This document shows positions 1 through 15,603 of a stretch of 64,000 bases of DNA, one piece after another. The stretch is taken from NCBI GenBank assembly GCA_003576695.1, contig QOZQ01000003.1, positions 248,001 through 312,000 on the forward strand, read 5' to 3'. The notes below the pieces were generated by a model. The model was not told the DNA's origin. It was given only the letters and a program-made list of their open reading frames with translations, and made no database searches. How positions within the stretch are numbered: the first letter of the stretch is position 1; every line of letters begins with the position of its first letter. The position numbers and the translations under genes are program-made. The DNA is from Taklimakanibacter lacteus. GTDB lineage: Bacteria; Pseudomonadota; Alphaproteobacteria; Rhizobiales; Aestuariivirgaceae.

Positions 1-144
1 AAGATCCCGCCGCCCATGTTCAACGACATATGGGCGATGGCGCATCCGCTGCACAAGCAACTGGTCATCGACGGCAACACGCTGCCCTTCTGGCAGAATC
101 TGCGCGCGTTGTCGCGCATGCTCTCGCTGATGAGACAGGTCTAG
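1..144 (+). CDS. C-terminal fragment of an unidentified protein
   Basis: An open frame enters from the left edge and gives 47 residues ending ...LSRMLSLMRQV before the stop at 142-144. I do not recognise a family in this tail. The next gene starts 13 bases later with its ribosome site AGGAG overlapping this stop, so the fragment is probably the upstream member of the same operon. It could belong to the missing part of the ABC system below, but nothing in the tail proves that. Confidence 0.55.
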   Translation, partial: KIPPPMFNDIWAMAHPLHKQLVIDGNTLPFWQNLRALSRMLSLMRQV

Positions 145-157
145 GAGATTTACGCTC

Positions 158-1114
158 ATGAACACCCACGATCCGATTGTCGGCCGGTATGTCTATGTCC
201 AGTGCGAAGGCAAGACCTACCGCACTTACTATGAAGAGCATGGCGATGGCATTCCGCTGGTCTGCCTGCATACCGCGGGCACCGACGGGCGCCAGTACCG
301 CCACCAGCTATGCGATCCCGATATCAGCCAGAACTATCGCGTCATCGCCTTCGACATGCCGTGGCACGGCAAGTCTATCCCGCCCTCCGACTTTTACCTG
401 ATGGAGGACGAGTACAAGCTGACGACCCGATTCTATTGCGAGTTCATCGTCGCCTTCTGCCGGGCGCTCGATCTCAAGAAGCCGGTGATCATGGGGCAGT
501 CGATGGGCGGCAATGTCTGCCTGGCGCTGGCGCTGAAATACGAGAACGAATTTTCCGCCCTGATCGCGCTCGAGGCCTGCGATTATTCCCCGGGCTGGTG
601 GATCGACCCGCTGCATCATCCGCATATCCATGGGGGCGAAGTGGTGGCGACTTCGGTTTTCGGCCTGATGTCGCCGGAATCGCCGGACGAATACCGTTGG
701 GAGACCTGGTGGTATTATGCGCAGGGCGGCCCCGGCATCTTCAAGGGCGACCTTTATTTCTACAGCGTCGATTCCGATCTGCGCGACCAGGTGCACAAGA
801 TTTCCGGCAAGGTGCCGATCTTCTTCCTGACCGGCGAATATGATTTTGCCTGCACGCCGGAGATGACGGAACGGACCGCCGAGAAGGTGAAGAACTCCGA
901 ATGTATCATTTTCAGCGGCGGCCATTTCCCGACCTCGGAGGACCCGGTCAAGTTCAAGGGTGTCATTGCGCCGGTGCTGAAGAAGATCCTCGGGCTCGAT
1001 CCGGAGCGCCGCGGCCAGGCTCCTGGCCTCGGCGCCCGGGCGGGCATCACGGATTCGCGCGCCATCGGCCGGAACGAGCGTCCGGGCGATGGCCGGCGGG
1101 TCATCGACCTTTGA
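158..1114 (+). CDS. Alpha/beta-fold hydrolase
   Basis: The 318-residue protein is a serine hydrolase of the alpha/beta superfamily; substrate unknown. Visible: oxyanion-loop region LHTAGTDGR (about 38-45), nucleophile elbow G-Q-S-M-G-G with Ser115, candidate acid Asp229 in LTGEYDF and His256 in SGGHFP, all in family order. No signal peptide, so probably cytoplasmic. The ATG has AGGAG about 10 bases upstream. After residue 285 there is a hydrophilic Arg/Gly-rich tail beyond the usual fold. It opens the cluster of membrane proteins and may process a substrate handled by the transporter, which is inference from position only. Confidence 0.85.
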   Translation: MNTHDPIVGRYVYVQCEGKTYRTYYEEHGDGIPLVCLHTAGTDGRQYRHQLCDPDISQNYRVIAFDMPWHGKSIPPSDFYLMEDEYKLTTRFYCEFIVAFCRALDLKKPVIMGQSMGGNVCLALALKYENEFSALIALEACDYSPGWWIDPLHHPHIHGGEVVATSVFGLMSPESPDEYRWETWWYYAQGGPGIFKGDLYFYSVDSDLRDQVHKISGKVPIFFLTGEYDFACTPEMTERTAEKVKNSECIIFSGGHFPTSEDPVKFKGVIAPVLKKILGLDPERRGQAPGLGARAGITDSRAIGRNERPGDGRRVIDL

Positions 1115-1175: not shown

Positions 1176-2543
1176 ATGTCGCAGTCGCGGGGTTCACAGA
1201 ACACCTACCTGCTGGTACCGATCCTGCTGATCGCCGTGCTGCTGAGCACCGCGGTGATCCGCGGGCCGAATCTCGTTTCGCTGTCGGGCTTCGGCAGCGC
1301 GATCATCGTTTCGGCGCCGCTCATCCTCGCGACCTACGCACTAATGGCACTGGCAGTCGCGGGACGTGGGACGGTCGATCTCGCCGTCGGTCCGCTGCTC
1401 GCCTTCATCAATGTTTCGGTGGTGAAACTGAACGGGCTCGGCGTCGTGACCTCACCGCTCGGCGTCTTCATCGTCGCCCTCGGCATCGGGGTTCTTTACC
1501 AGCTGCTGTTCGCGCTCATCATCATCGTCGTGAGAGTCCAGCCGATCATCGTCGCGCTGAGCGGTTTCCTGGCGCTGACCGGCATCAATCTGGTGATCCT
1601 TCCCCGGCCTGGTGGTGTGGCGCCGGACTGGATGTCATCCTGGGGACTCGGCAACACCATCTTCTCGCCGGTCCTATTGATGCTGGTCATCGCAACCGGC
1701 GGCTGGCTGCTGTTCACGCTCACATCCTTCTACGGCAATCTCAGGATGATGGGCTATGACGAGCGGGCGGCCTATACCAGCGGCGTCAGGATCAATATCG
1801 TGCGTATCGGCGCGCATGTGATTGCCGGATTGTTCGTAGGCCTCGCGGCGATCTGCTACACCGGGCTCATCGCATCGGGCGACCCGACGCAAGGCACGAC
1901 GATGACGCTGACCGCCGTCACCGCTTTGGTGCTCGGCGGCATCAGCCTGTCGGGCGGACGCGGCGGCGTGACCGGCGCGCTTCTCGGTGCGCTCAACCTC
2001 TTCCTCATCGGCTATGTGCTTGCCACGTTCAATTTCGGTGCCGTCCAGGCCTTCGTCACGCAGCTCTTCTATGGGCTGATCCTGGTCCTGTCGCTGCTTC
2101 TCACACTGCTCGTGCCGATCATCGGGCGCTATGTCTATTTCATCTCGCCTTTCGCCGCATTCATGGTCCTTGGCTCGATTGTCGCCGGCATCATGCTGCA
2201 GGTCAGCACCCAGACCACCTATGTTGCGACGAGCACGGCCCCGGTTGCAGTTCCCGCGGCCGATGTCCTGGGCCGCTACCTGCTACTGTTGCCGGGCGAT
2301 CCGACCGGTGCCGGCCTGCCGTCGTTCAGTCCGCTGCTGCAAGTGCTGTTCGTGCTGGCTGCGGTTCTCCTGGCGATCACCTTCACGATCCGGGTAACTG
2401 TCGCGGAGGCTCTGTCGCTTCGTCTCGGGGCTTTCCTCTATGCATTCGTCTCGGCTCTGATCCTGCTTCTCTTCTTCGTTGTGGCGGGCCAGAGTCAGCC
2501 GCTTCCGGGGGATCAGCCCGCTTCTCTGGGTGAGCAACGATGA
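1176..2543 (+). CDS. Ribose-type ABC transporter permease with C-terminal extension
   Basis: 455 residues, largely hydrophobic. The first about 310 residues resemble the BPD_transp_2 (RbsC/XylH-like) permease fold, including the G-rich loop near 250-270 (VLGGISLSGGRGGVTGALLG) expected to contact the ATPase. Residues about 320-440 add roughly three more membrane spans with a periplasmic-looking loop, which is longer than the usual 320-350 residues. The stop overlaps the next permease start by 4 bases, so the two are translationally coupled. No ATP-binding subunit or binding protein follows; they may lie left of the window. Substrate unknown. Confidence 0.8.
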   Translation: MSQSRGSQNTYLLVPILLIAVLLSTAVIRGPNLVSLSGFGSAIIVSAPLILATYALMALAVAGRGTVDLAVGPLLAFINVSVVKLNGLGVVTSPLGVFIVALGIGVLYQLLFALIIIVVRVQPIIVALSGFLALTGINLVILPRPGGVAPDWMSSWGLGNTIFSPVLLMLVIATGGWLLFTLTSFYGNLRMMGYDERAAYTSGVRINIVRIGAHVIAGLFVGLAAICYTGLIASGDPTQGTTMTLTAVTALVLGGISLSGGRGGVTGALLGALNLFLIGYVLATFNFGAVQAFVTQLFYGLILVLSLLLTLLVPIIGRYVYFISPFAAFMVLGSIVAGIMLQVSTQTTYVATSTAPVAVPAADVLGRYLLLLPGDPTGAGLPSFSPLLQVLFVLAAVLLAITFTIRVTVAEALSLRLGAFLYAFVSALILLLFFVVAGQSQPLPGDQPASLGEQR

Positions 2544-3958
2544 GCGATCTCTCCCCCAGGACCGATCGTCCGGCCATGGCCTTCATTCCAAGGTCGTCCT
2601 TCCTGGTCTGGCTCAACCTGGCCATCACGCTTCTGATCGGCGGCGCGGGCTTCGGCCTCGGCTTCGCCCAGGGCCTGAGCGCCCAGCTCGTCATTCTTTA
2701 TACGGTGATCTCCAGCGCGGTGCTGTTCTGGCTCATCAACTATGTCGCGGTCGTATTCGAATCCCGCCGCGCCGCGGTGCAGGAGAGCGAGACTGGAGAG
2801 GGGGCGAGATCCGCTTCGGGTGCCAAAGGCGTCTGGCAGGGCAATCGCGCCCTGATCATCGCCATGGGCCTGCTCCTCATCGCCTATCTGATCGTCACCG
2901 CGACCGTCCCGGCATTCCGCACGGTGCCGAACCTTCTCGGCTTTCTGCTGCTTGAGGCCATTCTGGTCTTTGCCTTCAAGGTCAGCGGCGTCTTCGTCCA
3001 TGGCCGTAGCGCCTTCATCGGTCTCATCGTCCTCCTGGCGCTGATCGTGATCAGCTCATTCACGATCCCCGGCTTCCTGTCGGGTCCCAACATCAAGGCA
3101 ATCCTGCTGTTCGCCGCCTTCCTCGGCATCGCCTGCGTCGGACAGACATTGGTGGCGCTGCTCGGCGGTCTCGATCTGTCGATCCCCTTCGTCATCGGCG
3201 CCTCCAATATCGGGCTGCTCTATCTGATCGGTCTCGGCGTTCCGTCCTGGCTTGCCTTCGCCATTGTGCTGACGGTCGGCGGCATCATCGGCCTCATCAA
3301 CGGCGTGCTGTCCTACCGATTGCAGGGCCAGGCTTTGATCCTCACGCTCGGCATGGGTTTCGCGGTCGCAGGATTCGTGCAGATTCTCACCAGCATCGGC
3401 TCGTCCTTCAGCGGCAATGTCTATGGCACGGTTCCCGGCTGGCTGCAGAACCTCGCCGCGATGAACGGCGTCACCTTCGGGCTCGCGGTGCCGCCGACGA
3501 TCCTGCTGTGGATCGTGCTCGCCGTCATCGTCATCATCGCGCTGCGCTATTCTGCCTATGGCCGTTATATCTATGCGCTCGGCGGCAATCGCCGCTCGGC
3601 CAAGCTCGTCGGCGTATCGGAGTTCAAATACTGGACTCTGGCCTATACGATCAGCGGCTGCTTCGCGGCTTTGACCGGGTCACTGCTGCTCGGCTGGAGC
3701 GGCGGCGGCTTCATCGGCGTCGGCGATCAATATCTCTTCACTACGCTTGCCGCAGTCGTCATCGGGGGAACATCCCTCATGGGCGGCTATGGCGGTTACG
3801 GTTTCACGGTGATCGGTGTCCTGGTCCTGCAGGTGCTCAGCGCCTTCCTGATCGGCATCGGTCTCAAATACGAGTGGCAGCAATTCATCTTCGGGCTCCT
3901 GATACTGCCGATGGTCGCGCTCTATGGGCGCATGCCTCACATCAGGTCGCAAGTCTAG
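2540..3958 (+). CDS. Ribose-type ABC transporter permease with N-terminal extension
   Basis: 472 residues. Residues about 160-465 form an RbsC-like permease core: GGLDLSIPFVIGASN, then YGRYIYALGGNRRSAKLVGV, then VVIGGTSLMGGYGGYGFTVIG. The first about 150 residues are an extra module with two early spans, a short charged stretch (about 75-95) and two further spans. Starts in an ATGA overlap with the preceding permease, so the pair is probably a heterodimeric channel. The lysine-less rhodopsin homologue follows after 9 bases. Substrate cannot be read from the sequence. Confidence 0.8.
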   Translation: MSDLSPRTDRPAMAFIPRSSFLVWLNLAITLLIGGAGFGLGFAQGLSAQLVILYTVISSAVLFWLINYVAVVFESRRAAVQESETGEGARSASGAKGVWQGNRALIIAMGLLLIAYLIVTATVPAFRTVPNLLGFLLLEAILVFAFKVSGVFVHGRSAFIGLIVLLALIVISSFTIPGFLSGPNIKAILLFAAFLGIACVGQTLVALLGGLDLSIPFVIGASNIGLLYLIGLGVPSWLAFAIVLTVGGIIGLINGVLSYRLQGQALILTLGMGFAVAGFVQILTSIGSSFSGNVYGTVPGWLQNLAAMNGVTFGLAVPPTILLWIVLAVIVIIALRYSAYGRYIYALGGNRRSAKLVGVSEFKYWTLAYTISGCFAALTGSLLLGWSGGGFIGVGDQYLFTTLAAVVIGGTSLMGGYGGYGFTVIGVLVLQVLSAFLIGIGLKYEWQQFIFGLLILPMVALYGRMPHIRSQV

Positions 3959-3967
3959 GGGAAGCAC

Positions 3968-4657
3968 ATGTTAGGCACACTGTTCCAATCCAGCGATCTG
4001 GTCAGCACATCCTTCGGGGTCGCGACGATCGCGACGCTCGCTTGCGCGGCGCTGATGCTGCTCGGCATGAGCTGGAGCGCCGAGCGGTGGCGGGTGCCGG
4101 TCGCGCTCGCCGGCGTGGCGCTGCTCGCTTCCGGCTTCCACTATCTCGAAACCACCCAGATCTGGTTGAGTTCGCAGCAGATGACGGCGGCACCGCGCTA
4201 TATCGGCTGGTTCGTCGTGCATCCGCTGCAGGTGGCGTCGGTCTATTTTTTCGCCCGCATCGTCGGTCCGGTGCCGGTCGGCGTGTTCTGGCGCATCACG
4301 GCGGCGGCGATCCTCATGGTGCTGAGCCGGTTTCTCGGTGATGCCCAGATCTTCAACCCGACGCTCGGCGTCTTGTTGTCGATAGCCTTCTGGCTCTACA
4401 TTCTGGGCGAAATGTATTTCGGTGCGATGAGCGATGCCGTGCGCAAATCGTCTCGCCACATCCGTCTCGGCTATTTCTGGATCCGCCTGATCCTTACCAT
4501 AGGCTGGGCGGTCTATCCGATACTGCACTTCGTCGATGTGGTGATCGGAACCGGCCATGTGCGCAGCATCATCGTACTCTACACGGTCGCCGATCTCGTC
4601 AATCTCATAACCGTCTCGCTGATCATCCTGGCCGTTGCCGGCAAGGAACGATTCTGA
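3968..4657 (+). CDS. Microbial-rhodopsin-fold protein lacking the retinal-binding lysine
   Basis: 229 residues with seven predicted membrane helices that align by eye to proteorhodopsin. Helix B has GFHYLETTQIWL with His58 (matching PR His75). Helix C has R77-Y-I-G-W-F-V-V-H-P-L against RYIDWLLTVPL, so the proton acceptor Asp97 is Gly80, Thr101 is Val84 and the donor Glu108 is Ser91. Helix F has TIGWAVYP (Trp180, Tyr183, Pro184). Helix G has YTVADLVNL against YNLADFVNK: Asp209 (PR Asp227) is kept but Schiff-base Lys231 is Leu213, encoded by CTC, which is at least two base changes from a Lys codon. The frame is intact. It cannot bind retinal covalently in the usual way and is unlikely to pump protons; a sensory, structural or ligand-binding role is open. 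Confidence 0.8.
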   Translation: MLGTLFQSSDLVSTSFGVATIATLACAALMLLGMSWSAERWRVPVALAGVALLASGFHYLETTQIWLSSQQMTAAPRYIGWFVVHPLQVASVYFFARIVGPVPVGVFWRITAAAILMVLSRFLGDAQIFNPTLGVLLSIAFWLYILGEMYFGAMSDAVRKSSRHIRLGYFWIRLILTIGWAVYPILHFVDVVIGTGHVRSIIVLYTVADLVNLITVSLIILAVAGKERF

Positions 4658-4717
4658 GGCGGAAAGAAACTCCATGCCGCCGGTGGCGGTCTCGAAGGAA
4701 AGCGGAGGACTTCCAAA

Positions 4718-6691
4718 ATGACAGGCGCAAACGCAATCGCAGTAGTCATCCTGCTGATCATACTCATCGCGATCGGCGTCTATCTGCTGCACTGGCTTTA
4801 CCGGCACTCGTCGAAGGACCAGTCCTTCGTGCGCACCGGTTTGCGCGGCGAACGCGTGGTCATGGGCGGTGGCGCGTTGGTGGTGCCGATCGTCCATAAC
4901 ATCACGCGCGTGAACATGAACGCCATTCCGCTCGAAATCCGGCGGCTCGGCGAGCAATCTTTGATCACCAGGAACAAGATGCGTGTCGATATCGTCTGCG
5001 AATTCTTCGTACGGGTCATGCCGACCAGGGAAGGCGTTTCGACCGCCGCCCGCACGCTCGGCGAGAGGACGCAAAGTGCTGCCGACCTCAAGGAGATCGT
5101 GCAGGGGCGCTTCATCGACGCCATGGCCGCTGTGGCGGCCACGATGACCATGGACGAGATCCATACCGGCCGTGGCCGCTATATGAGCGAAGTTGCCGCA
5201 CTTGCCACCAAGACGCTGGGTGCCAACGGGCTCGAGCTTGAGAACGCCTCGCTGACCAGCCTCAACCAGACCGACATTTCGATATTCAATCCGGCCAATG
5301 CCTTTGACGCCGAAGGCCTGACCCGGCTTACCGAGGAAATCGAGGAGCGCCGCAAGCTGCGCAACCAGATCGAGAATGCGGCACGCATCGAGATCAAGCT
5401 CAAGGATTACGAGACCGAGCAGCGCGCCATCGAGATCGATCGCGACCTCGAATATGCCCGCATTGGGCAGGCCCGCGATATCGAAACGAGGCGGGCGGCG
5501 CAGCTCGCCCAGATCGAGGAGGAGCGCTCGACCTCGGCAATCAGCATCCAGAATGCCAAGGTCCGGGCCGAGCAGGAAGCCGAGCGCATCCGTATTGCCA
5601 AGGACCGCCTGGTCGAGGCGGAACGGATCAATACGGCCAACGAGATCCGGGCGCTCGAGATCGAAAGGCAGAAGGAGACCGATCTCGTCGAGATCAATTC
5701 GCGCAGGGAGGTCCGGATAAACAGCGAGAATGCGGATGCCGAGGAAGAAAAGGCGCGCATCGCCAAGCGCTACAATGTCGACCTCGAGCGTCTGAAGAAG
5801 GACGAGGAGATCGTCCATCTCGAGATCGTCAAGAACCAGAAGATCAAGCTGGCGGAAACTTCGTCTTATCGCAAGACCGAGGATGCCCACATACTGGCGA
5901 ACCGCGAGCTCGATGAGCTGCGCATCGCGGCGCGCAAATATGTCGACAAGTACGAGATCGAGCAGCAGAAGGAAGTCGAGATCATCGACAAGGAGCGATT
6001 GATCGCTGTCATCAATAAGTCGATCGAGGAAGCCTATGCCAAGACCGACGCGGCGGAGGCCTGGAAGGTCCAGGCCAAGCTCGAGGAAGAAATCGTCAGC
6101 GCCAGGGAAGAAGAAGTCGCCGACCGGCTGAAGCGGGTCGAGCTGATCGCCGCATCCGCCAGGCACGAGCGCGAGGCGCAGCGGCTTGTTTCCGCCGCCA
6201 AGGCGGAGAAGGAGGCGACCGAGATGCGGGCGCTGGCCGAGATCGCCGAAGCCAATGCGGCGGAAGTGCGTTACGCCAAGGATGCGGAAGGACAGCGCCT
6301 GCTCAACGAATCGGAGAATTTGCGCTCCGATGCCAGCCGGCGCAGCGCCATCTATGAGAATCTGGTGCGCAACCTGCCCAATATCATCCGCGAGACCGTC
6401 AAGCCGATGGAGAACATCGACTCGATCAAGATCCTGCAGGTGGACGGCCTGCCCGGCCTCAACAGCCCCTCGGAAATGGCGGGAAGCGAAGGCGGTGGCG
6501 GGGGAGGCGGCAGCGGTAACATGACCGACCGGGTGGTCAATTCGGCAATGAAATACCGCACACAGGTCGCCTTCGTGGATGGGCTCATGAAGGATCTGGG
6601 ATTGCCGATCGAGAATCTCGGGAGTGCCGGCGGCATGTCGTTCCGCAACTTCCAGGGGCCCGATAAGCCGGCCAAGGACAGTGACGATTGA
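4718..6691 (+). CDS. Flotillin-like SPFH/band-7 protein (YqiK type)
   Basis: 657 residues. An N-terminal membrane helix (about 5-27) is followed by an SPFH domain (about 30-190; VRTGLRGERVVMGGGALVVPIV is typical of the YqiK/flotillin start). A very long Glu/Arg/Lys/Ala-rich coiled coil spans about 200-540. A conserved-looking segment NLPNIIRETVKPMENIDSIKIL (about 550-570) precedes a poly-glycine linker near 590 and a short C-terminal region. Flotillins scaffold membrane microdomains and oligomerise. Ribosome site GCGGAGGAC lies 8 bases before the ATG. Its position between a seven-helix protein and a transporter suggests it organises them in the membrane. Confidence 0.88.
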   Translation: MTGANAIAVVILLIILIAIGVYLLHWLYRHSSKDQSFVRTGLRGERVVMGGGALVVPIVHNITRVNMNAIPLEIRRLGEQSLITRNKMRVDIVCEFFVRVMPTREGVSTAARTLGERTQSAADLKEIVQGRFIDAMAAVAATMTMDEIHTGRGRYMSEVAALATKTLGANGLELENASLTSLNQTDISIFNPANAFDAEGLTRLTEEIEERRKLRNQIENAARIEIKLKDYETEQRAIEIDRDLEYARIGQARDIETRRAAQLAQIEEERSTSAISIQNAKVRAEQEAERIRIAKDRLVEAERINTANEIRALEIERQKETDLVEINSRREVRINSENADAEEEKARIAKRYNVDLERLKKDEEIVHLEIVKNQKIKLAETSSYRKTEDAHILANRELDELRIAARKYVDKYEIEQQKEVEIIDKERLIAVINKSIEEAYAKTDAAEAWKVQAKLEEEIVSAREEEVADRLKRVELIAASARHEREAQRLVSAAKAEKEATEMRALAEIAEANAAEVRYAKDAEGQRLLNESENLRSDASRRSAIYENLVRNLPNIIRETVKPMENIDSIKILQVDGLPGLNSPSEMAGSEGGGGGGGSGNMTDRVVNSAMKYRTQVAFVDGLMKDLGLPIENLGSAGGMSFRNFQGPDKPAKDSDD

Positions 6692-6725: not shown

Positions 6726-7190
6726 ATGCAGCCCCTGAACGAGACCGAGGCCCTGGACCGGCACGCGCTGGTCATGGCCATCTGGCTGGCGCTCGGCTTT
6801 ATCGCCGTCATATTGTTCGACTATGGCTTCGGAGCGGGAGGCATCGCGGCCATCGCCGCAGGCTTCATTGCGGTGCTCGCGGCCTTCGCCGGCCACGTGA
6901 TCACCAACGCCGTCTATGCCAGCGATTTCACAACGCGCGAAGTAGCGCTCGGCCTGGTGCTCTATGCGGCATCCCTTGTGACCCTGGCGCTCGCTGCCTT
7001 GCTGGCGCCGGATTTTGCTTCACGCAATTTCCTGCCGCTCAGCCTGGGCTTCGTTGCGATCGCTGCTGCCGTCATCATCTATATGATCATCCGCTTCGGA
7101 CTGCGTCGTTCATTCGATGCGTTCGACGTCATCAGCGACTTCCGGTCGCGGCGGACGCGGAATGATACGCCGGACGGAGGCATCAGGTGA
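6726..7190 (+). CDS. Small four-helix integral membrane protein
   Basis: 154 residues with four strongly hydrophobic segments (about 15-35, 37-58, 74-96, 104-124) and a basic Arg-rich tail (SDFRSRRTRND). No family recognised. The stop overlaps the GTG start of the downstream symporter (GTGA, 4 bases), which is the arrangement seen when a small accessory subunit is made with a larger carrier. It is longer than the small subunits of VC_2705-type symporters, so homology to those is not claimed. Confidence 0.75.
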   Translation: MQPLNETEALDRHALVMAIWLALGFIAVILFDYGFGAGGIAAIAAGFIAVLAAFAGHVITNAVYASDFTTREVALGLVLYAASLVTLALAALLAPDFASRNFLPLSLGFVAIAAAVIIYMIIRFGLRRSFDAFDVISDFRSRRTRNDTPDGGIR

Positions 7191-9094
7191 CGACGCTTCT
7201 TTCGACCGCTCTCGCCTTTCTCATCGCTTACGCGATCTATGTCGCCGCTCTGTCCCGCCATGTGGAAGGCCGGCCAGAAGACTTCCTCGATGCCGGGCGG
7301 TCCTTGCCGTCCTGGGCCTATATCTTCGCCGGCGCCGGCGTCGTTGCCGCCTCTCTCGGTCTTCACGATCATCTGCTGCTGACGGCGCGCTACGGCCTGC
7401 AAAGCAGTCATGTGGCCGTCGGCCTGATCGTTGTCGCATTGGCGAGCGTCCTGATCCAGAAGCGTCTGTGGCTGGCGGCGCGCATCACCGGCAGCCGCAC
7501 CGCCGGTGATCTCATGGGAATTTATTTCGACAGCATCGCCATTCGCCTCTGGCTGCTGGGCGTTCTCTTTCTCTTTTCCGTACCGGTCATCGCCTATCTG
7601 CTGGCCGAGACCGGCGGTCTCATGGCGACGGCAAGCGCCGAGGCGATGCCGGCCAGGCTGGTGATCTGGGTAGCGGCCTTCTTCCTCTTTCTCTTTTCGG
7701 CGGTCGGCGGTTGGCGCGCCGTGATCTATGTCACGGCGACCCTGTCGCTGTTGCTGCTCATCCTCATCGCATTTACCGGTACCTTTGCCGGCGTCACCTT
7801 CGAGAGCCTGGCCTTCGTGGCGCGCGGCATCGACGTCGGCGACGGCATTCTGGCCGACCAGATCCCCGGCGTGATCCAGTTCAGCCAGGGCATCGGCAAG
7901 GGATCGGCACATGGTGGCATTTGGACGACAATCGCCATCCTGTCTTTTTCGCTGTCGATGATCGGCGTGGTGCTCAGCCCCGGATTTGGTCTTCTCGGCA
8001 TCACGACATCGACGCGCAAGGCTTTCGCCTTCAACCAGGTCTGGGTCCTGGGCGGACTCCTGGCGGGCCTGCTGCTCATCGTCGTGCCAATCATCGCCGC
8101 CGAAATGAAGTCCGCTGCCGGGGCGGATTTTGCCGGAATCGTATCGCGGCTCGCCTCGTTGGATCAGTTCGCCGCCATCGGCTTCCTGCTTCTCGTGTTG
8201 TCGGCCTCGCTGATCGGCATCGCCTTCTTTGCCGCTTCCGGTGCCAGCATCGTCACCATCGAGGTGATGAAGCGCTTCATTTTGCCCGAGCTGACCGGCC
8301 GGGGCCAGAAGCTCGCCGCGCGCATTGCTCTCGCCGTCATCTATCTGGCGGCCGCGACAATAGCCAGCGTCACACCGCAAGGTGCCGCGATATTCTCTTC
8401 TCTGGCCCTCAGTTTGTCGGCGCAGCTGCTGCCGGCCTTTCTCGGCCTGTGCTGGCTGCCCTGGATCAGCCGCAGTGCTGTTCTGACGGGGTTGATCTTG
8501 GGCTCGATCGCCGTGCTGTTCACCGAACCTCTGGGCCTCATTTTTTTCGAAGGCCTGTTCGTCGACCTGCCCTGGGGACGCTGGCCGTTGACGATCCACT
8601 CGGCCGCCTGGGGCCTCGCCTTGAATCTCGGCGCCTGTTTCCTTGTCTCGATCTTCACCTATGGCGGTGCCGAGCGCGATCATCGGCAGCGGCTGCATGA
8701 CGTCCTTTCCCGGGACCATCGCATCGATTTCGGCGGTCCGGCGGCGCGCGGTGCGAAGTGGTCACTGACCCTGATCTGGGCGTTTCTCGCTTTGGGTCCC
8801 GGCGCCATATTGGGCAACGATTTCTTCAGCCAGCCGATGTTTACCGGCGGAAATGTGGCGCTCGGCGTTCCCTCCCTCCTGGTCTGGCAGATCATCTTCT
8901 GGTCACTGGGCGTCCTGATCGTCTGGTGGTTTGCCTATCAGAGCCGCATGTCCGTCATCGTGTCCGAGCCGCGCCACAGCCTGACATTGGAACCGGCTCT
9001 CAACAGGCTTGAGCGGCCGGCGACGCCACCCTGGATCGCCCGACTGCTCGGCCGGGTGGCGGGGCAATCGACCCAGATTGTCCGCCGCGATTGA
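7187..9094 (+). CDS. Sodium:solute symporter family transporter
   Basis: 635 residues, about 13-14 hydrophobic spans, with features of the SSS fold: ARITGSRTAGDLMG near 100, FSLSMIGVVLSPGFGLLGITTSTRKAF around 250-280, and a late segment WAFLALGPGAILGNDFFSQP (about 530-550) shared by a subgroup of SSS carriers. Expected role: Na+-coupled uptake of a small organic solute. GTG start overlaps the preceding gene. It closes the plus-strand membrane cluster. Substrate unknown; the late GPGAILGN motif argues against a classical proline or glucose symporter. Confidence 0.75.
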   Translation: MTTLLSTALAFLIAYAIYVAALSRHVEGRPEDFLDAGRSLPSWAYIFAGAGVVAASLGLHDHLLLTARYGLQSSHVAVGLIVVALASVLIQKRLWLAARITGSRTAGDLMGIYFDSIAIRLWLLGVLFLFSVPVIAYLLAETGGLMATASAEAMPARLVIWVAAFFLFLFSAVGGWRAVIYVTATLSLLLLILIAFTGTFAGVTFESLAFVARGIDVGDGILADQIPGVIQFSQGIGKGSAHGGIWTTIAILSFSLSMIGVVLSPGFGLLGITTSTRKAFAFNQVWVLGGLLAGLLLIVVPIIAAEMKSAAGADFAGIVSRLASLDQFAAIGFLLLVLSASLIGIAFFAASGASIVTIEVMKRFILPELTGRGQKLAARIALAVIYLAAATIASVTPQGAAIFSSLALSLSAQLLPAFLGLCWLPWISRSAVLTGLILGSIAVLFTEPLGLIFFEGLFVDLPWGRWPLTIHSAAWGLALNLGACFLVSIFTYGGAERDHRQRLHDVLSRDHRIDFGGPAARGAKWSLTLIWAFLALGPGAILGNDFFSQPMFTGGNVALGVPSLLVWQIIFWSLGVLIVWWFAYQSRMSVIVSEPRHSLTLEPALNRLERPATPPWIARLLGRVAGQSTQIVRRD

Positions 9095-9196
9095 ACCGGC
9101 ATGGCCTTAGCTAGACAGAAGCCCCCATCCGCACCTAAGCTCTATAACGGAGCGATATGGGTTATCGCGTCGCATCCCAAGCGCGAGGGCAGCCGG

Positions 9197-10159
9197 TTGG
9201 ATCTTCGGCAACTGAAATATTTCGCCAAGGTGGTGGAGAGCGGATCGTTTTCCAAGGCGGCCAACCAGCTGCATGTCGCCCAGCCGGCGCTCAGCCAGCA
9301 TGTGCGGCATATGGAGGAAGAGCTTGGAGTCGCGCTGCTGCATCGGGGAGCCCAGGGCGTCAGCCCGACGGAAGCGGGCGAGCGGCTGATGCGGCACGCC
9401 AAGCGAATCCTGGCCGAGTTTTCCGAGATCCATGACAGTGTCCGCGGCGAGGCCATTGCGCCCCGCGGCGAGGTCCGCTTCGGACTGCCCGCCACGGTCG
9501 GTGAATTGCTGGCGGTGCCGCTGATAGAGGCGGCCAAAAAGCGTTATCCCGATGTGCGCATCAGGGTCGTCGAGGCGATGAGCGGCTATGTCCTGGAATG
9601 GCTCAGGCAAGGCAAGATCGATCTCGCCATGCTCTATGCGACGGCGGATCCGCGCGGGCTCGCGGTGCATCATGGGCTTTCGGAAGAAATCTGCCTGTTC
9701 TCGAACGCGACCATGGAAGGGCTGGCGGATCTCCCCAAGTCCAAGGTAAAATTGAGCGCCGCCGCCAAGTTGCCATTGGTCGTTCCGGGACCGGGCCACG
9801 GTCTGCGCGAATTGATTGAAGACGCTGCAGTGGTGGCGCGGGTCTCGATCAATCCAGCGATTGAGATCGATTCCTATAGCCAGATCAAGAAGCTGGTGCA
9901 GCGCGGGCTGGGCTTCGGAATCCTGCCGCGCATGGCGGTGAACAAAGAGGCCGAAGCGGGCCGGTTCCGGATCTGGCGTTTCGAGGCGCCGGTGCTGACG
10001 CGCAAGGTCTATCTGGCCTATTCCACCGAGCGACCGCTCTTGACCGCGCCCAGGGCCGTAGGCCAGCTCTCCTGGGAGATTCTGCGCCAACTCGTCAAGG
10101 AACGCGTGTGGATCGCCGAACTGTCGGAGGAGAGTCAGCGGCCGGCGCTCTATGGTTAG
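9197..10159 (+). CDS. LysR-family transcriptional regulator of the itaconate cluster
   Basis: LTTR of 320 residues from a TTG start at 9197; a frame upstream to ATG 9101 adds 32 residues unlike any LTTR. The TTG gives the canonical opening xDLRQLKYFAKVVESGSFSKAA and has GAGGG 7 bases before it. The HTH lies at about 18-40 (AANQLHVAQPALSQHVRHMEEELG) and the effector domain follows from about 90. It precedes the ict-like operon in the same direction, with a palindrome in the 111-base gap. In Pseudomonas aeruginosa an LTTR gene adjoins the equivalent itaconate operon, so control by itaconate or a CoA ester is the likely role. Confidence 0.85.
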   Translation: MDLRQLKYFAKVVESGSFSKAANQLHVAQPALSQHVRHMEEELGVALLHRGAQGVSPTEAGERLMRHAKRILAEFSEIHDSVRGEAIAPRGEVRFGLPATVGELLAVPLIEAAKKRYPDVRIRVVEAMSGYVLEWLRQGKIDLAMLYATADPRGLAVHHGLSEEICLFSNATMEGLADLPKSKVKLSAAAKLPLVVPGPGHGLRELIEDAAVVARVSINPAIEIDSYSQIKKLVQRGLGFGILPRMAVNKEAEAGRFRIWRFEAPVLTRKVYLAYSTERPLLTAPRAVGQLSWEILRQLVKERVWIAELSEESQRPALYG

Positions 10160-10179
10160 CGCGGATGCCCCTATGTAGT

Positions 10180-10206
10180 ATTTCGCTATACCCCTCATTG
10201 CGAAAT
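10180..10206. promoter_or_regulatory. Inverted repeat, candidate LysR operator
   Basis: Perfect 7-base arms ATTTCGC (10180-10186) and GCGAAAT (10200-10206) separated by 13 bases lie in the gap between the LysR gene and the CoA-transferase gene. Dyads of this size are typical LysR sites. A TTGACT hexamer at 10212 could be the -35 element of the operon. Binding is inferred. Confidence 0.5.
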
Positions 10207-10270
10207 CCTATTTGACTTCAAGGGCATGTCGTCGTGTCCTCGGGGCGATGAAAATGGACAGGGATGCCTC

Positions 10271-11425
10271 ATGGCCGGCACGCTGGAGGGAATAACCGTT
10301 GTTGCGCTGGAACAGGCGGTTGCCGCCCCCCTGGCGACGTCCAGGCTTGCCGATGCCGGCGCGCGCGTCGTCAAGCTCGAGCGGCCGGAAGGCGATTTCG
10401 CCCGCGGCTACGACGATTACGTGCGCGGCCTGTCGAGCTATTTCATCTGGAACAATCGCGGCAAGGAATCCTGTGTCGTCGACCTGAAGACGCCGGAAGA
10501 TCTGGAACTGGTCGAAAACATGCTGGCCGGTGCCGATGTCTTTGTCCAGAATCTCGCGCCCGGCGCCACGGATCGCCTCGGCATCGGCAGCAAAGAGCTG
10601 CGCCAGCGTCATCCGAGGCTGGTCGTCTGTGACATTGGCGGTTTTGCCGACGGCACGCCGGACCACGGTCGCAAGGCCTATGATTTGCTGATCCAGGCCG
10701 AAGCGGGTCTTGCCAGTGTGACCGGTTCTGCGACTTCGGGTCCAAGCCGCGTCGGCATCTCCATTTGCGATATCGCGACCGGCCAGGCGGCCTATGCCGC
10801 CATCCTCGAGGCGTTGCTGGCGCGGACGCGCACAGGCAAAGGCGCCCATCTCCAGCTGTCGCTGTTCGACACAATGGCCGAATATATGAATGTGCCCTAT
10901 CTGACGCGACGCTATGGTGAGAAAGAACCGAAGCGGCTTGGCTTGGCGCATCCCTCGATCGCACCCTATGGCGTCTTCCGCACGAAGGATGGTGAAGTCG
11001 TCATCTCAATCCAGAACGACCGCGAATGGGCGGTCTTCTGCGCACGCGTCCTGCAGGATAACACGCTTGCCGACGATGCGCGGTTCAGCCGGAATACATC
11101 ACGCGTCAGCAACCGCGACGTGCTCGACGGTCTCATCCAGAATGTGCTGGGAAAATTCTCGTTGCATCAGGTCTCGGCATTGCTCGACGAGGTGAAGATC
11201 GCCTATGGCCGCATCTCGACAATGGCCGACCTGATCGATCATCAGGGCGCGACCACAATGTCGGTGGAAACGGTGCAAGGCCCGGTGGAGGTTCTGGCGC
11301 CGCCGGTTATCGTCGATGGCAGGAGGGCGGCGCTCGGCCGGGTGCCGGAGCTTGGTGAACACAGCGCCAGGCTGCGCCAGGAATATGGTGCGCCGGCCAG
11401 AGCATACAGAGGAACATCGGCATGA
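10271..11425 (+). CDS. ict: CaiB/BaiF (family III) CoA-transferase, probable itaconate CoA-transferase
   Basis: 384 residues from ATG 10271 (AGGGA upstream); an earlier in-frame start at 10226 adds residues outside the family. Typical opening LEGITVVALEQAVAAPLATSRLADAGARVVKLERPEGD and the conserved catalytic Asp (Asp167 in VGISICDIATGQAAYAAI). Family III enzymes form an acyl-CoA by transfer from a donor CoA ester, usually succinyl-CoA. With a MaoC/HTD2 hydratase and CitE-like lyase in the same operon the expected acceptor is itaconate, as for ict (PA0882) of P. aeruginosa. Mesaconate would be the main alternative. The stop overlaps the next start (ATGA). Confidence 0.82.
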   Translation: MAGTLEGITVVALEQAVAAPLATSRLADAGARVVKLERPEGDFARGYDDYVRGLSSYFIWNNRGKESCVVDLKTPEDLELVENMLAGADVFVQNLAPGATDRLGIGSKELRQRHPRLVVCDIGGFADGTPDHGRKAYDLLIQAEAGLASVTGSATSGPSRVGISICDIATGQAAYAAILEALLARTRTGKGAHLQLSLFDTMAEYMNVPYLTRRYGEKEPKRLGLAHPSIAPYGVFRTKDGEVVISIQNDREWAVFCARVLQDNTLADDARFSRNTSRVSNRDVLDGLIQNVLGKFSLHQVSALLDEVKIAYGRISTMADLIDHQGATTMSVETVQGPVEVLAPPVIVDGRRAALGRVPELGEHSARLRQEYGAPARAYRGTSA

Positions 11426-12747
11426 GCCTGACACGCGATCTCGTTCGTCTCATCCGCGCCAAACCCGTCACCGATGGTGACTTGCAATGGGCCGCCTTCT
11501 TCGTCCTCGATACGCTCGCTTGCGCGCTTGGCGCGCTGAAGAGCGAGCCGGCACGCATGCTGAAGGCGGTCGCGCCGCCCGACGCGAGCGATGTAGCGCG
11601 CCGCGCCTTCTATCTCGGCGGCCTTGCCCATATACTCGAGATGGATGATCTCCACCGCGACTCCGTCGTGCATCCGGGCAGTATCGTCATTCCGGCTGCC
11701 TGGGCCATGGCCGACGAGCGCGATCTCGGCGGTGTCGCCTTCCTGAAGGCGATTCTGGCTGGCTATGAGGCCTGCTGCCGGGTCGGCATGGCGGTCGGCA
11801 AGACGCATTATCGCATCTGGCACAATACCTCGACCTGCGGTCCATTCGGATCTGCCATGGCTGCAGCCGAGCTCATCGGTCTCTCCGAAGACCAATGCGT
11901 GTGGGCTCTGGGCAATGCGGGCACACAATCTTCAGGCCTTTGGGAATTCCTGGCTTCGGGCGCGATGAGCAAGCATCTGCATACTGCGCGTGGAGCGGAA
12001 TCAGGCGTGCTGGCGGCGCTCCTGGCGGCGCAAGGCTTCACTGGCCCCGATCGCATCCTCGAGGGCGACAAGGGCTTCTTTGCTGGCCTGTGCGCCGATC
12101 CAATCCCTGAGGCGATCCTGGCAGACCCTGCGCGACCTTGGGAGCTGACGCGAACGTCGATCAAGCCGTGGCCATGCTGCCGTCACACGCATCCGGCGAT
12201 CGATGCCGCCATTGAACTGCATGGCAAGCTCGCGGGCGCTGCGGTCAAGTCGGTCCATATCGGTGCCTATCGCGCTGCGCTCGACGTGTGCGATCGTCCG
12301 CGGCCCAATGATCCCTATAGTGCCAAGTTCTCGCTCCAGCATTGCGTCGCCATCGCTTTGTGGGATGGTCTGGTCGTGCAGGACAGCTTCAACGCCGACG
12401 GGCGCCAGCGTGCCGCGGCGGGGCGCGATAAAGTCGCGCTCGCTTTGTCGCCTGCTATCGATGAGGCCTATCCGGCAGCCTGGGGCGTCGAACTCGCCGT
12501 CGAGACCACGGATGGACGCAAGCTCACCGCTGCCCGCCGCGAGGCCAAGGGTGATCCCGAGAACCAGTTGTCAGCTGGCGAACTTTCGGCCAAAGCGCGT
12601 CAGCTGCTCGCTGACGGCGGCATGGCCGAGGCGGCTCTGGAAAGGCTTGTGTCGGACATCGGCGCGCTGGTTCACGACAGGCCGGTACGCTCTCTCGGTC
12701 TGTTCCGAAGCGAGCGCGAGACCGCCGGACTGGCGCGGAGGGCCTGA
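11422..12747 (+). CDS. MmgE/PrpD family protein
   Basis: 441 residues of the MmgE/PrpD fold, which includes 2-methylcitrate dehydratase, cis-aconitate decarboxylase and iminosuccinate-type enzymes. Seen: LEMDDLHRDSVVHPGSIVIPAAWAMAD (about 73-99), GYEACCRVGMAVG, then KPWPCCRHTHPAIDA (about 250-265). A PrpD-family gene is also found in the Pseudomonas itaconate operon, where its exact step is not settled. It could isomerise or hydrate a C5 dicarboxylate, or make itaconate from cis-aconitate; the sequence alone does not decide. Coupled on both sides: overlaps ict and directly abuts the next ATG. Confidence 0.85.
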   Translation: MSLTRDLVRLIRAKPVTDGDLQWAAFFVLDTLACALGALKSEPARMLKAVAPPDASDVARRAFYLGGLAHILEMDDLHRDSVVHPGSIVIPAAWAMADERDLGGVAFLKAILAGYEACCRVGMAVGKTHYRIWHNTSTCGPFGSAMAAAELIGLSEDQCVWALGNAGTQSSGLWEFLASGAMSKHLHTARGAESGVLAALLAAQGFTGPDRILEGDKGFFAGLCADPIPEAILADPARPWELTRTSIKPWPCCRHTHPAIDAAIELHGKLAGAAVKSVHIGAYRAALDVCDRPRPNDPYSAKFSLQHCVAIALWDGLVVQDSFNADGRQRAAAGRDKVALALSPAIDEAYPAAWGVELAVETTDGRKLTAARREAKGDPENQLSAGELSAKARQLLADGGMAEAALERLVSDIGALVHDRPVRSLGLFRSERETAGLARRA

Positions 12748-13905
12748 ATGTTCGACTCGGAAGATCACCGGGACATACGCGAGGCTGTCCGCAAGCTGTG
12801 CGAGCGCTTTCCGGGCGAGTATTGGCGCAAGCTCGATGCCGAGCGCGCCTATCCTGCCGACTTCGTCAATGCCCTGACCGCAGCCGGCTATCTCGCCACG
12901 CTGATCCCCGAGGAATATGGCGGCGCGGGTCTGACTTTATCGGCAGCGGCAGCGGTGCTCGAGGAAATTCAGCGGGCCGGCTGCAACGGGGCGGCGTGCC
13001 ACGCGCAGATGTATGTCATGGGTACGGTGCTCAGGCACGGCAACGCCGATCAGAAAGCGCGCTATCTGCCGAAGATCGCGTCGGGTGAATTGCGGCTGCA
13101 GGCCTTCGGCGTGACCGAGCCTTCGAGCGGAACGGACACGACATCACTGCGCACCTTTGCGCGCCGGGACGGCGACCATTATGTGGTGAACGGCCAGAAG
13201 ATCTGGACCAGCCGGGCGGAATATTCCGACCTCATGCTGCTCTTGGCCCGCACCACGCCGCGCGATGAGGTGACGAAGCGCACGGAAGGCCTGTCGGTCT
13301 TCATTCTCGACATGCGTGAAGCGCTCAAGAAGGGGCTCACCATCCGCCCGATCCGCACCATGATGAACCATTCCACCACGGAGGTGTTCTTCGACAATGT
13401 GCGCGTGCCGGCCGCGAATCTCATTGGCGAGGAGGGGCGGGGATTCCGCTATATCCTGTCAGGGATGAATGCCGAACGCATCCTGATTGCCGCCGAATGC
13501 GTCGGCGACGCCAAATGGCTGATCGAGAAGGCCGCGCGCTATGCGGGCGAACGCCATGTCTTCGGCCGGCCGATCGGAGCCAATCAGGGCATCCAGTTCC
13601 CGATTGCCCGCGCCTACGCCAATATGCGGGCTGCCGAACTGATGGTAAAGGAGGCTGCACGCCTCTATGAGGCGGGACGCGATTGCGGTGCCGAGGCCAA
13701 CATGGCCAAGATGCTGGCGGCGGACGCCTCCAACGAAGCGGCCAATGCCTGCATCCAGACCCATGGCGGGTTTGGCTTCGCCGAGGAGTACGACGTGGAG
13801 CGCAAGTTCCGCGAGACGCGGCTTTATCAGGTCGCTCCCATTTCGACCAATCTGATCCTGGCCTATCTGTCCGAGCATGTGCTCGGCATGCCGCGGTCCT
13901 ACTGA
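12748..13905 (+). CDS. Acyl-CoA dehydrogenase
   Basis: 385 residues, full-length FAD-dependent acyl-CoA dehydrogenase. N-terminal helical domain with FPGEYWRKLDAERAYPADFV, middle beta domain with FGVTEPSSGTDTTSLRT (about 117-134) and GQKIWTSRAEYSDLMLLLARTT, and C-terminal domain with TMMNHSTTEVFFDNVRVPA, RHVFGRPIGANQGIQFPIA and QTHGGFGFAEEYDVERKFRE. The ATG follows the PrpD stop with no gap. In an itaconate operon it may handle a saturated analogue such as methylsuccinyl-CoA, as a mesaconyl-CoA-forming enzyme; that is inference. Confidence 0.9.
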   Translation: MFDSEDHRDIREAVRKLCERFPGEYWRKLDAERAYPADFVNALTAAGYLATLIPEEYGGAGLTLSAAAAVLEEIQRAGCNGAACHAQMYVMGTVLRHGNADQKARYLPKIASGELRLQAFGVTEPSSGTDTTSLRTFARRDGDHYVVNGQKIWTSRAEYSDLMLLLARTTPRDEVTKRTEGLSVFILDMREALKKGLTIRPIRTMMNHSTTEVFFDNVRVPAANLIGEEGRGFRYILSGMNAERILIAAECVGDAKWLIEKAARYAGERHVFGRPIGANQGIQFPIARAYANMRAAELMVKEAARLYEAGRDCGAEANMAKMLAADASNEAANACIQTHGGFGFAEEYDVERKFRETRLYQVAPISTNLILAYLSEHVLGMPRSY

Positions 13906-13921
13906 TAGTCGCCGCGCGGTA

Positions 13922-14773
13922 ATGGAAGAGGCACCGAAACCCTTCTCCGAATGGATCGGCCGCAGAACCGAAAGCGTGGACCTGATCACCGACCGGCTGG
14001 CGCAGAGCTTTCGTGCCATCTTCGAACCCCATCTGGCGCCGCTTGCCGAGGGTGACGCTCCCCTCGGCATCCATTGGTGCCTGTCGCCCGCGATCGCGCC
14101 CATGGCGGCACTGGGCGAGGACGGGCATCCGGCCAAGAACCTGCATCTGCCACCGGTGCCGTCGCCGCGGCGCATGTGGGCGGGCGGGGCGATCGAGCAT
14201 CATGATGCGCTCCGTGTCGGCGACCAGACGCGCCGCGTTTCGACGATCGGCGATATCAACCGCAAGATCGGCAGGAGTGGCGAATTATGGTTCGTGACCG
14301 TCAATCACGACTATGAAACCCGTCGCGGCCTCGCCATTCGCGAGCGCCATGAGATCGTCTATCGGGAAGCGGCAAGACCGTCGTCGACGCCAGTTGTTGC
14401 GCACGACGCCCCGACCGATGCGCGGCCACGCGACAGGAGCTGGACGATCGCCATGCCGCCGACGCTGCTCTTCCGCTATTCCGCCGTCAGCTTCAACGGC
14501 CACCGAATTCATTACGATCACCCCTATGCAACAGGCGTCGAATTCTATGACGGTCTGGTCGTTCACGGGCCGCTGCAGGCGACGCTGCTGCTCAACCTGG
14601 CTTCCATCCAGCTCGGGGCTCCGCCGCGCCGCTTCAGCTGTCGCGGCCTTGTCGCCGCGATCGCGGGCAAAGCGCTCGAAGTCTGCGCCGCGGCGACCGG
14701 TGATGACATTTCGCTATGGACGCAAGGGCCAGGCGGAACGATCCATATGGAAGCAAAGGCATCCGGCGCATGA
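13922..14773 (+). CDS. ich: HTD2/MaoC-type hydratase, probable itaconyl-CoA hydratase
   Basis: 283 residues from ATG 13922. Two hot-dog halves: an FAS1-like dehydratase N-terminal half with LGEDGHPAKNLHLPPVPSPRRMWAGG (about 60-90), and a C-terminal half with the hydratase signature FRYSAVSFNGHRIHYDHPYA (about 182-202; His and Asp positions present). This layout is shared by mesaconyl-C4-CoA hydratase (Meh) of the 3-hydroxypropionate cycle and itaconyl-CoA hydratase (Ich). The neighbouring CoA-transferase and CitE-like lyase favour Ich, giving (S)-citramalyl-CoA. The start of the lyase overlaps its stop (ATGA). Confidence 0.8.
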   Translation: MEEAPKPFSEWIGRRTESVDLITDRLAQSFRAIFEPHLAPLAEGDAPLGIHWCLSPAIAPMAALGEDGHPAKNLHLPPVPSPRRMWAGGAIEHHDALRVGDQTRRVSTIGDINRKIGRSGELWFVTVNHDYETRRGLAIRERHEIVYREAARPSSTPVVAHDAPTDARPRDRSWTIAMPPTLLFRYSAVSFNGHRIHYDHPYATGVEFYDGLVVHGPLQATLLLNLASIQLGAPPRRFSCRGLVAAIAGKALEVCAAATGDDISLWTQGPGGTIHMEAKASGA

Positions 14774-15594
14774 TGATCGCCCCGCTTTTCGTTCCCGCGG
14801 ACCGGCCGGATCGCTTCGCCAAAGCGGCAGAATCGGGGGCTGATGCCATCATCGTCGATCTCGAGGATGCGGTGCCGCCTGCCCGCAAGGATGAGGCGCG
14901 CGGAAATCTGGGCATCCTGCAGTCCCTGCCGGTACCGGCATTCGTGCGCGTCAACGCCGAAGGCACGCTCTGGCATGAAGATGATCTCGCCGCGCTCGTG
15001 CGCTTGAATATCGGCATGGTCTGCGTCCCCAAGGTTGAATCTGCCGGCCATCTTGATGCCCTCTTGTCGCGATTGGGCGCGGGAGCCCGGCTTCTGGCGC
15101 AAATCGAAACGGCCGCCGGAGTGAGCCAAGTGCAAGCCATCGCCGGCCATCGCGCCGTCACCCAACTGGCTTTCGGCCCGGCCGACTTCTTTCTCGACCT
15201 GGGAATTGGCGCTTCCGCTGAAATGGCGAGCCATGTGCTGTGTATCCTGGCGCTGGCCAGCCGGACGGCTGGCATAGCCGCGCCGCTCGATGGCCCCTGC
15301 TTTTCGGTCAGCGACCAGGACCTGCTCGCCCGTGAATGCGCGAATGCCGCGTCCGCGGGCGCGAAGGGAAAATTATGTATCCATCCCGCGCAGATTTCGG
15401 GCGTCTTCAGCCATTTCCTGCCGTCCGATGAAGAACTCGATTGGGCACGCCGTGTCAGCGAGGCCGACCGCGACGGCGGTGTGTGTCTCATCGACGGGCG
15501 CATGATCGATGCGCCGATCGTCGCGCGCGCCAAAGCGATGCTGGAGACAAAAGCACGGCGACGCGGCGTCATGCCACTTCGCCAGGCGCCATAG
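14770..15594 (+). CDS. ccl: HpcH/HpaI (CitE-like) lyase, probable citramalyl-CoA lyase
   Basis: 274 residues from ATG 14770. CitE-type barrel motifs: FVPADRPDRFAKAAESGADAIIVDLEDAV, VRVNAEGT (substrate Arg), VPKVESAGHLDAL, and Mg2+ ligands Glu in LAQIETAAGV and Asp in LAFGPADFFLDLG; LCIHPAQI near the end is also conserved. Enzymes of this type cleave malyl-, methylmalyl- or citramalyl-CoA; with ict and ich the predicted products are acetyl-CoA and pyruvate. Overlaps ich by 4 bases and is followed after 9 bases by the aldehyde dehydrogenase. Confidence 0.83.
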   Translation: MMIAPLFVPADRPDRFAKAAESGADAIIVDLEDAVPPARKDEARGNLGILQSLPVPAFVRVNAEGTLWHEDDLAALVRLNIGMVCVPKVESAGHLDALLSRLGAGARLLAQIETAAGVSQVQAIAGHRAVTQLAFGPADFFLDLGIGASAEMASHVLCILALASRTAGIAAPLDGPCFSVSDQDLLARECANAASAGAKGKLCIHPAQISGVFSHFLPSDEELDWARRVSEADRDGGVCLIDGRMIDAPIVARAKAMLETKARRRGVMPLRQAP

Positions 15595-15603
15595 GAGACC
15601 GAT

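Follow-up and report, generated by a model that had tools for sequence, protein, structure and literature searches.

A lysine-less flotillin-associated rhodopsin homologue encoded within a conserved ABC importer operon of Taklimakanibacter lacteus

A stretch of 64,000 nucleotides from the Taklimakanibacter lacteus genome (GenBank assembly GCA_003576695.1, contig QOZQ01000003.1, positions 248,001 to 312,000; hereafter the window) encodes, at 3968..4657 on its forward (+) strand, a lysine-less member of the flotillin-associated rhodopsin (FAR) family, a protein of 229 amino acids (aa) with seven helices. The site of the Schiff-base lysine is fixed as leucine, the proton-acceptor and proton-donor residues are lost, Arg77 and Asp209 are kept, and the gene shares one operon with an ATP-binding cassette (ABC) importer and a flotillin. 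Here we report a computational analysis of this gene, its relatives and its operon. The explanation that we favour, with moderate confidence, is that FAR is a retinal-free seven-helix subunit of a CUT2-like ABC importer, docked on extensions of the permeases in a flotillin-organised membrane patch. Genomes and loci are given by G and L handles (T. lacteus is G000), and L-type, R-type and Lys-type denote FARs with leucine, arginine or lysine at the Schiff-base site.

Identity and conservation of the lysine-less FAR

The frame at 3968-4657 (+) has 229 open codons, with its sole stop at the end, and starts after a gap of 9 bases from the end of the permease 2 open reading frame at 3958; both its integrity and its spacing had been stated in an earlier reading made without database searches (the sequence-only reading) and were verified here. 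The protein matches profile PF01036 over residues 13-224 (E 2.3e-12; 47.3 bits, cut-off 24.6). Among solved structures its nearest relative is PsFAR (PDB 9r21), a flotillin-associated rhodopsin, with a phmmer E-value of 1.4e-33, as against 3.5e-24 for a blue-absorbing proteorhodopsin. The AlphaFold2 model, predicted as a single chain like all structures here, has pLDDT 89.3 and pTM 0.85 and matches 9r21 with TM 0.91 (Foldseek E 7.1e-12). By sequence and by Foldseek 9r21 ranks first, and in VIA-align it ties with proteorhodopsin. No NCBIfam profile matched FAR. A promoter scan of positions 3800-4800 gave no promoter-like site and one terminator-like site inside the FAR gene, with no excess over shuffled sequences.

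The sequence-only reading had described a microbial rhodopsin homologue with leucine at the lysine site. The PF01036 match and the sequence and structure matches to 9r21 across the full seven-helix protein support that interpretation, and His58, R77-Y-I-G80-W81, S91, G-W180-A-V-Y-P184, D209-L-V-N and Leu213 all lie where they had been placed; the family itself, the flotillin-associated rhodopsins, had been left unnamed. That reading had also stated correctly that lysine-less homologues exist. According to the accessible text of Haro-Moreno et al. (PMC10308929), marine FARs keep the lysine, most novel freshwater FARs have Q, T, L or R in its place, and on freshwater contigs of sufficient length flotillin always adjoins FAR; the published lysine-less FARs come from freshwater metagenomes, on short contigs without genome context. 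The window gene therefore belongs to the FARs, and its lack of the lysine is not in itself a novelty. It resembles the published FArhodopsins (PMC10308929; 9r21) in fold, in sequence, in the flotillin behind it and in belonging to a gene cluster that includes a membrane translocator and a sodium symporter, and lysine-less members with Leu or Arg are among those reported from freshwater. It differs from them in that its clade occurs in larger genomes of soil, waste-water and marine alphaproteobacteria, that the acceptor Asp is lost as well, and that a whole ABC importer with extended permeases is resolved. No account of FAR's whole ABC system with extended permeases was found in the literature, the supplement of PMC10308929, most subscription journals and preprints lying outside the search. 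PMC10308929 was the one paper on these proteins that the literature search brought up. The open literature yielded no paper on PsFAR, and PMC10308909, in its accessible text, names FArhodopsins once.

Conservation was assessed in 141 rows, consisting of the window protein, the best 120 of 404 homologues and 20 genome loci (the homologue tables hold the best 120 of 404, of 1863 and of 4096 matches). These rows are not independent, L002, L003, L006 and L014 being 94-99% identical to a listed protein. At the Schiff-base site (Leu213, codon CTC, 4604..4606, +) 140 rows have Leu, one has Val and none has Lys, the residue that defines a retinylidene rhodopsin; a chance mutation or sequencing error is therefore ruled out, and lysine-bearing close homologues, which would have spoken against the sequence-only reading, did not appear among these rows. 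The proton-acceptor site (Gly80, codon GGC, 4205..4207, +; Asp97 in proteorhodopsin) holds G in 88 rows, A in 49, S in 2 and T in 2, and the donor site (Ser91) A in 95, S in 42, T in 2, M in 1 and G in 1. The Asp or Glu of a light-driven pump is found at neither site in any of the 141 rows. Compared with proteorhodopsin (7b03, 4kly), Lys231, Asp97 and Glu108 are thus Leu, Gly and Ser. Arg77 (codon CGC, 4196..4198, +; proteorhodopsin Arg94) and Asp209 (codon GAT, 4592..4594, +; proteorhodopsin Asp227) are kept in all 141 rows, and so are the pocket aromatics and proline Trp142, Trp180 and Pro184. The FAR at L013 (10001-10687) has Leu at Trp81, a residue nearly invariant elsewhere.

With lysine, acceptor and donor all lost, FAR could be viewed as a decaying relic carried in a useful operon, and the ratio of nonsynonymous to synonymous substitution (dN/dS, omega) for the window locus reaches 0.356 against L006 and 0.419 against L019. 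These higher values come from distant pairs, for which the simple method underestimates dS in GC-rich genes. Among the pairs considered (the 25 of lowest dS out of 210, plus every window pair), the three closest gave 0.051, 0.035 and 0.014, that is, purifying selection. The frame is intact in 20 of 20 relatives, and 42 columns are invariant across 60 sequences. Decay was rejected on these grounds and is barely credible, so that the gene looks selected, as had been proposed from the letters of the window.

Arg121 (codon at 4328..4330, +) lies in the column of PsFAR Glu120, and Arg occupies this column in all 262 rows from the L- and R-clades; none of the 118 rows in the set found with a Lys-type query has it. 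The comparison covers proteins of 200-290 aa, which for the Lys-query set means 118 of 120 (the best 120 of 4096 matches), and excludes L043 together with L052 and L069, repeats of L004 and L014; in the Lys-query set, 14 of the 118 rows are themselves without lysine (R 9, V 4, P 1). We take this column to be that of Gly122 of bacteriorhodopsin, beside the ionone ring, and Arg121 is predicted to intrude on the former retinal pocket. In PsFAR, Glu120 is one of two residues altered in a deposited mutant (9r23, from its title). Across sites 77, 80, 121, 209 and 213, the L-clade reads R-G/A-R-D-L, the R-clade mostly H-G-R-D/E-R, and Lys-type rows R-D-A/E/G-D-K. Exactly one of positions 77 and 213 holds Arg in 252 of the 262 lysine-less rows (both in 1, neither in 9), and we infer a buried Arg-Asp pair in FAR. 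Coupling of 209 and 213 within the R-clade is weak: five rows with Ala and Leu (one clade) and one with Gly and Gln agree with it, against two with Asp and Val (one clade) and one with Glu and Cys.

In a tree of 403 rows, the union of the L- and R-clades has support 99, with a program warning that long branches meet. The 21 pump-type rows stand apart from the 382 others with an unstarred support of 94, in a midpoint-rooted tree made by a quick method in which, again, long branches meet. Counted on starred branches, label R requires no fewer than 8 changes and label K no fewer than 6, which suggests from the aligned proteins that the retinal lysine was lost repeatedly in the FAR family.

The importer operon and its extended permeases

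The operon runs, on one strand, in the order binding protein (SBP), ATPase, ORF147, hydrolase, permease 1, permease 2, FAR, flotillin, 154-aa membrane protein and symporter-like protein. This order is kept in 17 of the 18 relatives with contig coverage, so that FAR is encoded inside an importer operon in the same place in each; at L018, the exception, the SBP gene is inverted and lies about 1.7 kb upstream. The operons of L004 and L012 are interrupted by contig ends. The setting among transporters and a flotillin, seen in the sequence-only reading as a neighbourhood, is more than that, namely a conserved operon. Permease 2 and FAR are separated by 9 bases in 13 of 19 loci, by 10-12 bases in 5 and by 61 bases in L006.

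One part of the importer tracks FAR. Permease 2 has an N-terminal extension (residues 1-154; 2540..3001, +) that contains three predicted membrane segments and has a fourth at its edge. By count of distinct loci, all 38 FAR operons with a permease 2 gene have the extension (19 L-type, 16 R-type and 3 Lys-type), and none of the 8 related operons in which no FAR was found has it. In the G290 family (297 genomes, of Rhizobiaceae type), a search for permease 2 at E up to 1e-70 gave 27 matches in 26 genomes (a maximum of 5 candidates per genome was scored). FAR and flotillin come next after every one of the 20 long permease 2 genes, the FAR being L-type in 5 cases and R-type in 15. The seven permease 2 genes that lack the first ~145-160 residues have no FAR and no flotillin within 1.5 kb on each side, and six genomes with short permease 2 only have no PF01036 match anywhere; G544 has one long and one short gene. 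Permease 1 is 323-330 aa in the 8 operons where no FAR was found, 445-482 aa in 21 L- and R-type operons and 757-796 aa in 3 Lys-type operons, all lengths being upper bounds taken to the farthest start. A permease 1 search at 1e-30 gave matches in 4 of 278 genomes: the window's, G185 and G259, both with FAR, and G247. As far as sequence comparison goes, the permease extension is an obvious candidate docking place for FAR.

The importer also accompanies FARs of other types. Lys-bearing FAR clusters in G185, G279 and G259 and an Arg-bearing one in G349 contain the same SBP, ATPase, permeases, ORF147, hydrolase, flotillin and symporter-like gene; therefore, the link to the importer is independent of lysine loss. 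In these clusters the four importer parts are 51-66% identical to those of the window, FAR 32-41% and flotillin 37-54%. These figures bear on a second explanation, in which FAR acts with flotillin as a microdomain organiser on membrane lipids and the importer is a mere passenger of the operon. A microdomain role has been proposed for FAR (PMC10308929, in its accessible text), and flotillin follows directly after FAR, on the same strand, in the window and in 20 of 20 relatives. Against it, SBP and permeases diverge less from one FAR type to another than FAR and flotillin do, and the permease 2 extension tracks FAR. We consider a microdomain organiser distinctly unlikely.

In the window itself, the 3' end of ORF147 occupies 1..144 (+), its start lying 299 bases before the window (L022:11701-12144). 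It is followed by an alpha/beta hydrolase (158..1114, +; PF00561 1.5e-22), ABC permease 1 (BPD_transp_2, 455 aa, with a C-terminal extension; 1176..2543, +; PF02653 1.1e-8) and ABC permease 2 (BPD_transp_2, 472 aa; 2540..3958, +; PF02653 1.9e-26). Behind FAR lie the flotillin of 657 aa, with SPFH and flotillin C-terminal domains (4718..6691, +; PF15975 3.2e-31, PF01145 3.6e-12), the 154-aa membrane protein with four predicted membrane segments (6726..7190, +; working label DUF154) and the symporter-like multi-helix membrane protein of 635 aa with 14 predicted membrane segments (7187..9094, +). The hydrolase and the last two proteins keep conserved places. Neither the 154-aa nor the 635-aa protein has a significant match in Pfam or NCBIfam, and "symporter-like" is a label taken from the published FAR cluster. 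ORF147 is present in 18 of 18 complete operons and, at differing places, in L-, R- and Lys-type FAR clusters. It has no Pfam match at E up to 10, a model of pLDDT 58.5 and one PDB profile match at chance level (E 0.45); that it is the sterol-carrier-like gene of the published FAR cluster is a guess.

Upstream of the window (L022), the SBP matches PF13407 (8.4e-38) and the ABC ATPase (L022:9515-11701) carries a fused C-terminal phosphatidylethanolamine-binding (PEBP) domain (PF01161 1.5e-28). This fusion occurs in 17 of 18 complete L-type operons, with L013 missing only the PEBP part, and was not found in clusters L070-L072 and L080, which are of Lys and Arg type. By sequence the SBP is nearest to CUT2 proteins such as 4rs3 (7.8e-26) and resembles the sugar or polyol types. 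The system shares with CUT2 sugar importers (RbsABC, YtfQRT-yjfF) a PF13407 binding protein, a double ATPase and BPD_transp_2 permeases, and is unlike them in NCBIfam equivalog scores far below cut-off, in the ATPase-PEBP fusion and in the extension of both permeases. No PDB chain was matched by the permease 2 sequence at 0.001. Downstream of the operon, at 9101-17085 of the window, lie genes for a LysR regulator, CoA-transferase III and MmgE/PrpD, and acyl-CoA dehydrogenase-like, FAS1-dehydratase-like and aldehyde dehydrogenase-like genes; varying sets of these acyl-CoA catabolic genes occur near the operon in relatives.

Search for a light partner and distribution

Of 37 genomes that have a lysine-less FAR, 36 yielded neither a second rhodopsin nor the BCD retinal synthase, a further difference from the published FArhodopsins. 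Among the 21 L-type genomes (G000 and 20 others), 18 have a single PF01036 match, G301 has two, and G300 and G306 have none; in these two the model misses the known FAR, which limits the search, and pump-type proteins score far better on it (4.5e-42 in G301). BCD was found among the 21 only in G301, the metagenome-assembled genome (MAG) of L014. The 15 R-type genomes of the G290 family and G349 each have one PF01036 match, and none of the 16 has BCD. Positive controls for the BCD search were the proteorhodopsin genomes G109 and G213 and G259, which has proteorhodopsin and a Lys-type FAR. A search for RPE65 gave no match in the 21 L-type genomes, and RPE65 genes were found in 2 of 3 Lys-type FAR genomes searched (G185, G279). 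In T. lacteus, no other rhodopsin, BCD or RPE65 gene was found; completeness figures cover the G-handle genomes of the window's class (99.72% for G000). In the G185 family PF01036 matches occur in 6 of 11 genomes, one each, and all are Lys-bearing FARs beside flotillin. FAR can therefore be the sole rhodopsin found even where the lysine is kept.

These results bear on a light-related role, in which FAR would partner a proteorhodopsin pump or bind retinal without the lysine. In the accessible text of PMC10308929, marine FAR genomes are reported always to have proteorhodopsin too, pairing of FAR with the pump is proposed, and a second rhodopsin could not be sought in the freshwater hosts of lysine-less FARs. 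G259 and G301 hold both FAR and proteorhodopsin, and the misses in G300 and G306, together with possible scavenging of retinal, limit the counter-evidence. The finding in 36 of 37 genomes argues against a proton-pump helper, and a helper of a same-genome proteorhodopsin was rejected on it; with RPE65 absent from the searches of all 21 L-type genomes and a Lys-type FAR as the only PF01036 match in 6 genomes, a light-related role is very unlikely.

Other rhodopsins without the lysine stand in different settings. Rh-noK of betaproteobacteria, a conserved gene in which the lysine is replaced, forms a tandem pair with the gene of a functional rhodopsin, and its protein pumps when the lysine is restored (Yamauchi et al. 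2019, as cited in the accessible text of PMC10308929); unlike it, FAR has no partner rhodopsin that we found and has lost the acceptor Asp too. The haloarchaeal opsin-related proteins are type 1 opsins without the retinal lysine, two of which were purified and had no absorption peak (Becker et al. 2016, PMC4915679). Unlike FAR, they are near sensory opsins and have other gene contexts, and flotillin is unmentioned in the accessible text.

FAR is patchily distributed around T. lacteus. In a search of 60 relatives overall, no FAR match appeared in the 4 further genomes of the genus and one appeared among 31 others of the family, with 28% identity and the lysine kept; G349, of the same order, has an R-type FAR. 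This patchy spread suggests, from gene presence, that the FAR operon was likely acquired horizontally in T. lacteus. In the same order, L077/L081 (G352:C362) has a Lys-type FAR beside a flotillin fragment, the matched frame containing one TAG stop. Hosts of the lysine-less clade include Mesorhizobium denitrificans LA-28, Ruegeria sediminis CAU 1488 and Defluviimonas sp. WL0075, and 7 of the 20 loci come from records not labelled MAG.

A proposed role in uptake

In the importer-subunit explanation, Arg121 would fill the former ionone end of the pocket and so close it, and the Arg-Asp pair would now serve as a structural lock or relay. FAR would touch the extra membrane helices of the permeases, and flotillin would gather the FAR-importer complex in a membrane patch. 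The outcome would be assembly or gating of uptake, independent of light.

Several observations weigh against this explanation. The permease 2 extension may mark a single evolutionary event, and the 38 and 8 operons are therefore not 46 independent trials. Three of the 8 operons in which FAR was not found (L109-L111) look like near copies, and a fourth (L086, in G247) is cut by a contig end just past permease 2; as G247 also has a sub-cut-off PF01036 match elsewhere (7.4e-4), it was rejected as a clean FAR-less case. The C-terminal extensions of permease 1 are not recognisably alike among Lys-, Arg- and Leu-type operons. Some genes are rearranged in the Lys-type clusters, and the 154-aa protein was found only in G349 among the G185, G279, G259 and G349 clusters, hence in none of the Lys-type ones. 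G301 is an L-type MAG with both proteorhodopsin and BCD. Finally, the retained Trp142, Trp180 and Pro184 could equally be explained by a ligand site.

This last point leads to the main rival, a chemoreceptor whose former retinal pocket holds a lipophilic molecule non-covalently (a fatty acid, an isoprenoid or the imported substrate) and which signals to the importer or flotillin. Besides the three pocket residues, retained in 141 of 141 rows, it can draw on retinal-free proteoopsin, which carried decanoate in its pocket (PMC11322631, accessible text) and whose structure, 8cnk, is the fourth Foldseek match of FAR. That decanoate is held by the very lysine that FAR lacks, however; Arg121 occupies a pocket column in 262 of 262 lysine-less rows, and no transducer or kinase was identified among the operon genes. 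A lipophilic-ligand receptor is in our view unlikely.

Lysine-less rhodopsins are represented here by a large clade in cultivable alphaproteobacteria that is tied to a definable importer; the role of a blind rhodopsin is therefore testable. To what was known of FARs the present analysis adds the genome-wide absence of light partners in the searches made, a conserved importer operon, a permease 2 extension that tracks FAR, and rewired charges. More tentatively, and with rather less than even confidence, we suggest that the whole FAR family, including the marine Lys-bearing members, may consist of light-independent ABC subunits on custom permease helices, in which the lysine would be a vestige lost many times. 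If FAR is indeed an importer subunit, the rhodopsin fold would have a function new to it, ABC importers would gain an accessory of a new kind, and the marine FARs would be recast as well.
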